A stretch of 64,000 nucleotides of DNA from Vitreimonas flagellata (lineage in GTDB: Bacteria > Pseudomonadota > Alphaproteobacteria > Caulobacterales > Aquidulcibacteraceae): positions 682,001-746,000 of the forward strand of contig NZ_SBJL01000002.1 in assembly GCF_004634425.1 (NCBI RefSeq). Direction: 5' to 3'. The notes beneath the pieces are model-generated. The model had not been told where the DNA came from and made no database searches. It saw only the letters and a list, made by a program, of their open reading frames with translations. Of the stretch, positions 5,082 to 48,052 are shown in pieces. A program made the position numbers and the translations under genes. Position 1 is the stretch's first letter; each line of letters opens with the position of its first letter.

Positions 5082-7310
5082 TTAGTCGCCCGAGCTTTCG
5101 CGGCGCGGGCGATCGCCACGGTCACGACGCGGGCCGCGATCGCCGCGGTCGCTGCGTTCGCGACGGGGGCCACGATCTTCCGCCTCTTCGCCAAGTTCGG
5201 CCGAGAGGTCAGCGCCGGTGGCTTGATCGACGACCTTCATCGAGAGCTTTACCTTGCCGCGATCGTCGAAACCCAAGAGCTTCACCTTCACGGTGTCGCC
5301 TTCCTTCACGACGTCGCCCGGCTTTTCCACGCGCTCACGCGCGAGTTGGGAGACGTGGACGAGGCCGTCCTTGGCGCCGAAGAAGTTCACGAAGGCGCCG
5401 AACTCCATCACCTTCACGACCTTGCCTTCGTAGATCTGGCCGACTTCCGGTTCAGAGGTCAGCGACTTGATCCACTTGATGGCGGCTTCGATCGAGTCGG
5501 CGTTGGCCGAGGCGACCTTCACCGTGCCGTCGTCTTCGACGTTCACCTTCGCGCCAGTCTTTTCCACGATTTCGCGGATGACCTTGCCGCCGGTGCCGAT
5601 CACGTCACGGATCTTATCGACCGGGATCTTAATCTGCTCGATGCGCGGCGCGTTCTTGCCGACTTCACCGCGCGGCGCATCCATCGCCTTCGCCATCTCG
5701 CCAAGGATGTGCATACGGCCGGCGTGCGCGCGATCGAGCGCCACCTGCATGATCTCCTGCGTGATGCCGGCGACCTTGATGTCCATCTGCAGCGAGGTGA
5801 TGCCCTTCGCCGTGCCCGCGACCTTGAAGTCCATGTCGCCGAGGTGGTCTTCATCACCAAGGATGTCAGTCAGAACTTCGTAGCCGTAATCTTCGAGGAT
5901 GAGCCCCATCGCGACGCCGGCGACCGGCGCAGAGATCGGCACGCCTGCATCCATCAGTGCGAGCGAGCTGCCGCACACCGTGGCCATCGAGGACGAGCCG
6001 TTCGACTCGGTGATCTCCGACACGAGGCGCACCGTGTAGGGGAATTGCTCCTGACTCGGCAGCACAGCTTTCATCGCGCGCCACGCCAATTTGCCGTGGC
6101 CGATTTCGCGGCGACCAGCGCCACCCATGCGGCCCGTTTCACCGACGCTATAGGGCGGGAAATTGTAGTGGAGCATGAAGCGCTCTTTAGTCGTGCCGGA
6201 GAGCGCATCGATGAATTGCTCGTCTTCTGCGGTGCCGAGGGTGGCGACGACGATGGCTTGCGTTTCACCGCGGGTGAACAGCGCCGAGCCGTGCGTGCGT
6301 GGTAGGAAGCCGACCATGCTTTCGATCGGACGCACCTTGTCGACCGGACGGCCGTCTATGCGGCCCTTTTCCTTGACGATGCGCGAGCGCACGACGTCGC
6401 TTTCGACTTCCTTGAAGACTTCCTTCAGGACGTTGGCGTCGACGCCTTCCGGGTTCGCTTCAGATTTCACCAGGGCCGCCTTCGCCTTGTCGCGCAGCGC
6501 ACCGACGGCGGCGTAGCGCTCGTCCTTCTTGGTAATCTTGTAGGCGGCGGAGAGATCGGCGCCGACGAGATCGAAGATCTTCTTCTTCAGCTCGGAATTG
6601 TCCGGCGGGGTGAAGTCGAATGGCTCCTTGCCGGCCTTATCTGCGAGATCGATGATCGCGTCGATGACCGGCTGCATGCCCTTGTGCGCGAGCGAAAGCG
6701 CTTCGAGCATTTGCGCCTCAGTGAGTTCCTTCACTTCCGACTCGACCATCATGATCGCGTTGGCGGTGCCGGCGACGACGAGGTCGAGATCACTCGTGGT
6801 CATTTGCGCAATCGTCGGGTTCAGCACGGCCTTGCCGTCGATCCAGCCCACCCGCGAAGCGGCGATCGGGCCCATGAACGGCACGCCAGAAATCGTGAGC
6901 GCCGCCGATGCGGCGACCATCGCCAACAGATCGGACTCATTCTCGTTATCCCAGCTCAGCACCGTGATGATAACTTGCACTTCGTTCTTGAAGCCATCGA
7001 CGAAGAGCGGACGGATCGGGCGATCGATCAGGCGCGACAGCAACGTTTCACGCTCAGTCGGACGGCCTTCGCGCTTGAAGAAGCCGCCAGGAATGCGGCC
7101 CGAAGCGAAATACTTTTCTTGGTAGTTCACGGTCAGCGGGAAGAAATCCTGGCCAGGCTTCGCTTCCTTCGCATAAACGACCGTCGCGAGCAGCGCGGTT
7201 TCGCCCCACGTAGCGTAAACGGCGCCGTCGGCCTGGCGCGCAACGCGACCGGTTTCAAGCGTGAGTGGGCGGCCCGCCCAATCGATGGAAACGGATTTGG
7301 TATCAAACAT
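5082..7310 (-). CDS. pnp: Polyribonucleotide nucleotidyltransferase (PNPase)
   Basis: 742 residues. PNPase degrades RNA 3'-to-5' by phosphorolysis and is a degradosome partner. Two RNase PH-like halves (starting [20 protein letters not shown], and with the second core [34 protein letters not shown]) flank an all-helical linker. A KH domain ([20 protein letters not shown]) and an S1 domain ([20 protein letters not shown]) follow. The last ~35 residues are an Arg/Gly/Asp-rich tail ([14 protein letters not shown]). The start is ATG 7310 after GGAGTT; the longer open frame runs through the structured leader and is rejected. The stem-loop array upstream suggests autoregulation at the mRNA-leader level. 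Confidence 0.96.
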
Positions 7311-7322
7311 ACATCTAACTCC

Positions 7323-7540
7323 AGGCGATGAGCCCCTGCTCAATCGCCTCGTCGGAGCGCAACGGCGATCCGTTGCGCAAATTGCCTCTTCCGCGGATCG
7401 GAAGAGGTTCGTCCAGTGCCAGCGCGCATTTGCGCGATGACGGATGAGGGGTGATTGCGTGAGGTCTGACGCATTTACGTCAGCACCCCTCACCTGCGCT
7501 CGCAAGCGAGCGCTGTCCTCTCCTCATACGAGGAGAGGAC
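7323..7540 (-). promoter_or_regulatory. Chain of stem-loops in the rpsO-pnp intergenic RNA
   Basis: Almost the whole 240-base gap folds into successive inverted repeats: 7323-7349 (11 pairs, one bulge), 7357-7378 (GCGCAACGG/CCGTTGCGC), 7385-7407 (CCTCTTCC/GGAAGAGG), 7423-7436, 7445-7492 (TGAGGGGTG/CACCCCTCA enclosing CTGACG/CGTCAG), 7496-7513 (GCGCTCGC/GCGAGCGC) and 7515-7540 (GTCCTCTCCTC/GAGGAGAGGAC). None carries a T-tract, so this is not a simple terminator. In E. coli a hairpin in this gap is cut by RNase III and PNPase then represses its own mRNA. A similar, larger device, or a REP-like repeat cluster, is likely here. Confidence 0.75.
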
Positions 7541-7550
7541 GAGTCTGCGC

Positions 7551-7820
7551 TTAGCGGCGCAGGCCCAGCTTTTCGATGAGCGCTTGGTAGCGCGCCGCAT
7601 CGCAGCTCTTCAGGTAGTCGAGCAAACGACGGCGCTGAGAAACCATTTTGAGCAAGCCTTGACGCGAGTGATTGTCTTTCTTGTGCGTCTTGAAGTGCTC
7701 GGTGAGGTTGGCGATGCGCTCAGAGAGGATCGCAACCTGAACTTCCGGCGAACCGGTGTCGCCCTTGGTCTTAGCGTTGTCTTTAATGAGCGCGGCTTTG
7801 CGCTCCGTAGTAATCGACAT
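7551..7820 (-). CDS. rpsO: 30S ribosomal protein S15
   Basis: 89 residues, the normal S15 length. S15 binds 16S rRNA early in assembly of the 30S platform. Family signatures are clear: [20 protein letters not shown], then [19 protein letters not shown] and the C-terminal [14 protein letters not shown] 7820 has AGGAG upstream. It follows truB by about ten bases and precedes pnp, the standard proteobacterial order. The extensive hairpins begin 11 bases after its stop and would protect or process its 3' end. Confidence 0.97.
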
Positions 7821-48002: not shown

Positions 48003-48011
48003 GGCCCTTCA

Positions 48012-48052
48012 AGACCCTGTTGCGAGTCCCGCAACAGGGTCTTTTTCTTTTG
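48012..48052 (+). terminator. Rho-independent terminator of the TonB receptor
   Basis: AGACCCTGTTGCG (48012-48024) and CGCAACAGGGTCT (48030-48042) form a perfect 13-bp stem with an AGTCC loop, followed by TTTTCTTTTG. It starts 10 bases after the receptor stop. Readthrough to the MFS gene, 15 bases beyond, is possible. Confidence 0.93.

Follow-up and report, generated by a model that had tools for sequence, protein, structure and literature searches.

The 64,000-nucleotide stretch of Vitreimonas flagellata DNA that we analysed, hereafter the window, carries an rpsO-pnp operon on its minus strand. The upstream gene, rpsO (7551-7820), an open reading frame whose relatives were retrieved by protein search, encodes S15 (89 aa). 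The gene pnp (5082-7310), which encodes PNPase, begins with an ATG at 7310-7308, a true start conserved among relatives, and is preceded at a distance of 8 nt by a Shine-Dalgarno sequence, GGAG (7319-7322), read from the sequence and conserved in the alignment. From the stop of rpsO to the ATG of pnp lie 240 nt (7311-7550).

A gap filled with stem-loops

A sequence-only reading of this DNA had described seven stem-loops filling 7323-7540. We found all of them, in a gap bounded exactly by 7311 and 7550: they lie at 7323-7349, 7357-7378, 7385-7407, 7418-7441, 7443-7494, 7496-7513 and 7515-7540, with a further CTGACG/CGTCAG hairpin (7466-7483) nested, as described, within 7443-7494. The earlier description was made on the plus strand, but the genes and the stronger structure are on the minus strand. 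The transcribed strand of the gap folds at -142.3 kcal/mol (z = -8.5), a value that none of 200 shuffles equalled, against z = -7.6 for the plus strand. The gap lies 6.4 SD under the GC-corrected mean of 3,832 segments of 240 nt sampled over 464 kb of the same genome, and a single other segment equals it in structure. No T-tract (intrinsic) terminator was found on either strand of the gap, which bears out the earlier remark, and no sigma-70-like site that could mark a second promoter was seen in it, a consensus that alphaproteobacterial promoters may not fit. A search of Rfam 15 returned no family at the gathering threshold for the window; nor did any for 11 related loci, where the best match, whalefall-1, scored 20.7 bits and its cut-off is 37.

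The rpsO-side half is a copy of a mosaic palindromic repeat

The gap is a composite, made of a copy of a dispersed repeat on the rpsO side and of a pnp leader proper on the pnp side. The array had been read either as a leader exerting control or as a cluster akin to REPs; both proposals apply, each to one half, the former to the leader that adjoins pnp and the latter to the repeat that adjoins rpsO.

The four rpsO-side hairpins (7418-7540, minus strand) make up a copy of a mosaic repeat minus its last hairpin. Hairpin A (7515-7540; GTCCTCTCCTC-GTAT-GAGGAGAGGAC, 11 bp, perfect) has the same position and role in the dispersed copies. Hairpin B (7496-7513; GCGCTCG-CTTG-CGAGCGC, 7 bp) is seen in the fold and in dispersed copies. 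Hairpin C (7443-7494), the repeat core, in which GGTGAGGGGTG...CACCCCTCATCC surround CTGACGTAAATGCGTCAG (7466-7483), is dispersed in the genus, and hairpin D (7418-7441; GTCATCGCGCAAATGCGCGCTGGC) is found in the fold, in relatives and in dispersed copies. The final hairpin, E (CACCTTCTCCC..GGGAGAAGG), is present in relatives and missing from the copy in the window. Searching for the core pattern GGTGAGGGN{25,55}CCCCTCAYCCG, with the same pattern reversed as a control, yielded between 0 and 22 copies in each genome of the genus, 3 in the own genome of the window, and 0 for the control. The hairpins follow a shared order in the copies: A (CCCTCTCCCCTTGTGGGAGAGGG), B (a short hairpin), C, D (GGCGCTTCGCGCC-like) and E (CACCTTCTCCCACAAGGGGAGAAGG); hairpins A and E are able to pair, which makes an inverted repeat of the unit as a whole. 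The C-D-E junction also occurs in other alphaproteobacterial families, where a single genome holds as many as 77 copies. We rejected the whole gap as a dispersed repeat, since BLAST of the gap against its own genome returned only itself and short partial matches. Starting from one of these partial matches, we located a complete copy of the mosaic (contig C4, near 234,300), with its hairpins in the order A-B-C-D-E. The dispersal that had been suggested for the hairpins, to be checked by genome BLAST, was confirmed for the rpsO-side half by the pattern search and does not extend to the three pnp-side hairpins, which have no second copy in the genome.

By its described architecture, the repeat resembles the RIMEs, Rhizobium-specific intergenic mosaic elements (Osteras 1995, as cited in PMC2573895), in that both are dispersed intergenic palindrome mosaics of Alphaproteobacteria: several palindromes recur elsewhere in the fixed order A-B-C-D-E, with no hit for the reversed control. 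In contrast to the Rhizobium-specific elements, the present one belongs to a Hyphomonadaceae/Caulobacterales-like genus, and one copy, its last hairpin lost, is fixed between rpsO and pnp. REP and BIME elements, which are GTAG- or CGTC-tagged and RAYT-associated (PMC3733652), are likewise palindromes scattered outside genes, able to occur in clusters and to fold into hairpins in mRNA. On inspection, the bases of the hairpins in the repeat copies showed neither GTAG nor CGTC as a conserved tag, and a search for RAYT (Y1 transposase, PF01797) gave no match in the own genome while 5 of 14 control genomes were positive. The REP-like label is thus right as to a dispersed mosaic palindromic repeat and fails on the tags and on the transposase. 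A mosaic element built in the same way (CCTTCCCCC..GGGGGAAGG), apparently an independent arrival, also sits in the rpsO-pnp gap of L183, a locus from a distant family.

The repeat varies and the leader hairpins persist in relatives

We took the rpsO-pnp gaps of 27 genomes of the genus, located by protein search. They measure 183-304 nt and are hairpin-filled in all 27. The rpsO-side part is variable: most gaps have a version of A-B-C-D, often followed by the fifth hairpin E, five keep a reduced C alone (L029, L030, L036, L037 and L045), and in L031, L035, L043 and L052 unlike palindromic elements occupy the same place. Of the 27 relatives, 10 have an intact core pattern of C in this gap. Since relatives reduce or replace the repeat so freely, this half is probably either neutral or a shield for the 3' end. 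Among the replaced versions, the 199-nt gap of L043 contains repeats of GCGAATGGCGA, tandem GCGAATGGCGATTGGCGAATAGCG units taking the place of the mosaic repeat and forming one long hairpin; the gaps of L052 and L035 hold a different palindromic element, whose long inverted repeat is almost perfect (CCCCCTCCTCTTGAGAGGAGGGGG ... CCCCCTCCTCTCAAGAGGAGGGGG in L052) and is probably a substrate of RNase III.

On the pnp side the gap is stable, with hairpin H7 present in 27/27 relatives, H6 in nearly all and H5 in about 20. In the window, these hairpins (7323-7407, minus strand) run up to the Shine-Dalgarno sequence: H5 (7385-7407) is CCTCTTCCG-AUCCG-CGGAAGAGG, H6 (7357-7378) is GCGCAACGG-AUCG-CCGUUGCGC and H7 (7323-7349), which adjoins the Shine-Dalgarno sequence, is AGGCGATTGAGC-AGGG-GCTCATCGCCT. 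The three loops, AUCCG, AUCG and AGGG, are all of the class A(N2-4)G. Within the genus, H5 consists of a pentaloop, AUCCG or AUUCG, on a 9-bp stem in which 6 of the 9 pairs have changed on both sides, with 99.4% of cells paired. The H6 loop is AAUCCG in many relatives, and otherwise AUCCG or AUCG. The H7 loop is AGGG, ACCG, AUCG or AUGGG, carried on stems that are very unlike among relatives (AGGC..GCCT, AGACCGT..ACGGTCT, GCCCG..CGGGC). An alignment of H5 and H6 from 19 distinct genus leaders showed 97% of cells paired and 9 pairs with changes on both sides; its covariation score was 0.388, versus 0.179 after shuffling and at most 0.11 with slid partners. The conservation of stems in relatives, on which a regulatory role had been made to depend, therefore holds on the pnp side, where the stems covary.

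Two further candidates were tried and rejected. Firstly, the minimum-energy fold suggested that the Shine-Dalgarno sequence is sequestered at long range by the 20 nt with which the gap begins; over the 27 relatives, the mean duplex energy was -8.5 kcal/mol, versus -8.6 kcal/mol for shuffled sequences. Secondly, CsrA-type A(N)GGA sites were considered; GGA is absent from the commonest loops AAUCCG, AUCCG, AUGGG and AUAGG.

A loop class before pnp across Alphaproteobacteria

We surveyed every hairpin loop, whatever its type, in 158 rpsO-pnp gaps (27 from the genus, 52 from the order and 79 from the class), all loop counts here and below being counts of loci and not of independent events. The commonest loops were AAUCCG, AGGG, AUCCG, AUGGG and AUAGG. 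Hairpins with an A(N2-4)G loop, a loose definition (4-6 nt, A...G) with no strict example in about half of the gaps at class level, numbered 169 of 546, versus 17.6 per shuffled set. They represent 54% of the hairpins located within 90 nt of pnp, and their share falls with the distance to the pnp start, from 67% (under 30 nt) to 51% (30-60 nt), 41% (60-90 nt) and about 4% (beyond 150 nt). The background in 800 kb of the same genomes is 4-5% of hairpins, and the share upstream of other genes is 3-8%. Eight core loops account for 39% in pnp leaders versus 0-0.8% before other genes. Because the class had been defined on the survey set, we tested it on 76 further pnp loci from another collection, in which sphingomonads are heavily represented and none of which is identical to a survey locus. 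A(N2-4)G loops were found in 46 of 100 hairpins, at 40 loci including Sphingomonas, Azospirillum, Novosphingobium and Sneathiella, and these hairpins mostly end 13-31 nt ahead of the ATG. Outside Alphaproteobacteria, in a small comparison of 32 pnp upstream regions, the class made up 4 of 47 hairpins.

These data bear on whether the seven hairpins are nothing but a non-regulatory repeat cluster, rpsO-pnp being a landing site for palindromes and the array giving at most some protection to the rpsO 3' end. Such a cluster would be in keeping with the dispersal of the rpsO-side half, with the different palindromic elements lodged at the same place in four relatives and with the similar element in the distant L183. 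It is nevertheless very unlikely, given that H5-H7 are not dispersed, that their stems covary, that the loop class recurs ahead of pnp across Alphaproteobacteria and that, in about 860 kb scanned, A..G-loop hairpins in tandem occur only at the pnp leader of the window.

The hairpin next to the Shine-Dalgarno sequence could also have been kept, as a GC-rich structure, for another reason, for instance translation tuning or RNase E access. It would then act without any protein reading it, by leaving the ribosome site open or by positioning RNase E, and its A..G loop would have been chosen for folding. The constant distance to the ATG, about 13-30 nt, agrees with such a tuner, as does the rise in pnp mRNA upon RNase E inactivation in R. 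sphaeroides (PMC7866481). Generic folding or spacing, however, would not account for loops that are nearly absent before other genes, and we find this explanation rather doubtful.

Discussion

The autocontrol of PNPase is a textbook case from E. coli, with RNase III as its starter. PNPase, with the involvement of its KH/S1 domains, autoregulates through the rpsO-pnp hairpin in both E. coli and Streptomyces (PMC10126417). The window has the same operon and the same gap, with structured RNA before pnp. In contrast to those systems, the gap here holds an array of seven hairpins, and its conserved part is composed of two or three short A..G-loop hairpins at the Shine-Dalgarno sequence, with no single long RNase III helix.

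Maintenance of pairing in stems that drift, together with the loop class and the distance to the Shine-Dalgarno sequence, before one gene and class-wide, points to an RNA element that is read through its loop. We therefore consider it fairly probable that the gap combines an inherited repeat with a class-wide pnp leader acting as a protein-read RNA operator, of which PNPase is the leading candidate reader. The rpsO-side half, one copy of the dispersed RIME-like palindrome mosaic, would in that case have been inherited vertically, and in the mRNA it would probably shield the rpsO 3' end from exonucleases or be neutral. H5-H7 would be the genus-specific, multi-hairpin form of an element that precedes pnp across Alphaproteobacteria, the leader proper consisting of two or three hairpins in a row, whose stems drift and whose loops are of the A(N2-4)G class, the last abutting the Shine-Dalgarno sequence. 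A protein binding these loops would lower pnp translation or mRNA stability; binding, ligand and effect on expression are all predicted here from sequence. PNPase itself, by means of its KH/S1 domains, is the first candidate because of the autoregulation known from E. coli and Streptomyces, in which these domains take part.

The E. coli mechanism might equally be transposed as it stands: RNase III would cut a long helix (C or A), PNPase would trim the duplex and the pnp mRNA would be destabilised, the pnp-side hairpins being mere spacers. This scheme has the precedent of the rpsO-pnp gaps of E. coli and Streptomyces (PMC10126417). In length, helix C and the stem nested in it would suffice as an RNase III substrate, and several Rhizobiales-like gaps contain a long imperfect hairpin. 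Yet the long helices of the window belong to a repeat that relatives lose or replace, with the core intact in only 10/27 genus gaps, the covarying and loop-conserved part is on the pnp side, and deletion of rnc leaves pnp mRNA unaffected in R. sphaeroides (PMC7866481), so that we hold such a transposition to be unlikely. The R. sphaeroides results, an unchanged pnp mRNA in the rnc mutant and an increased one upon RNase E inactivation, fit a leader unlike that of E. coli. In its most specific form, the operator reading would make the leader an undescribed, class-wide cis-regulatory RNA before pnp, with drifting stems and a loop of the A(A)UNSG/A(N)GG type at the Shine-Dalgarno sequence, which PNPase would read in tandem as its own, RNase III-independent operator; we put this forward tentatively, as a possibility suggested by the sequence comparisons. 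Such a leader would add to the catalogue an RNA family absent from Rfam and would indicate an RNA-binding specificity, possibly that of the PNPase KH/S1 domains; its recognisable loop, kept class-wide, would make the control of alphaproteobacterial pnp directly testable. The locus also illustrates how a regulatory leader proper and a palindromic repeat of the dispersed kind may be taken for a single array.

Another structured regulatory RNA is known from the same operon and the same class, the alphaproteobacterial S15 leader (PMC4137082). That leader sits upstream of rpsO and binds S15, whereas the element described here occupies the rpsO-pnp gap.

Elsewhere in the class, the gap takes other forms. 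In one family of the order, seven loci (L060, L061, L068-L070, L076 and L117) have a rpsO-pnp gap of 29 nt without a hairpin (TCCGCGACGCTATCCGTACGAAAGACGAT), so the element can disappear completely. Five Rhizobiales-like gaps (L257 and L260-L263) share a recurring long imperfect hairpin (CATGGCAGGAT[T/C]GC...GCAATCTTGCxCATGG-like), which resembles the E. coli RNase III helix more than anything in the window does; that of L263 carries an AATCCG-loop hairpin besides. As for strong palindromes away from the operon, the one segment of the own genome as structured as the gap (L123:15001-15260, that is C1:415001-415260) is a BIME-like unit, in which CGGACCGCCGGCTTCCAGCCGGC palindromes are paired and inverted relative to each other, and the window itself contains perfect long hairpins at 2020-2052 (13 bp, TTTCGATATATCT..) and 48011-48043 (14 bp, AAGACCCTGTTGCG..).
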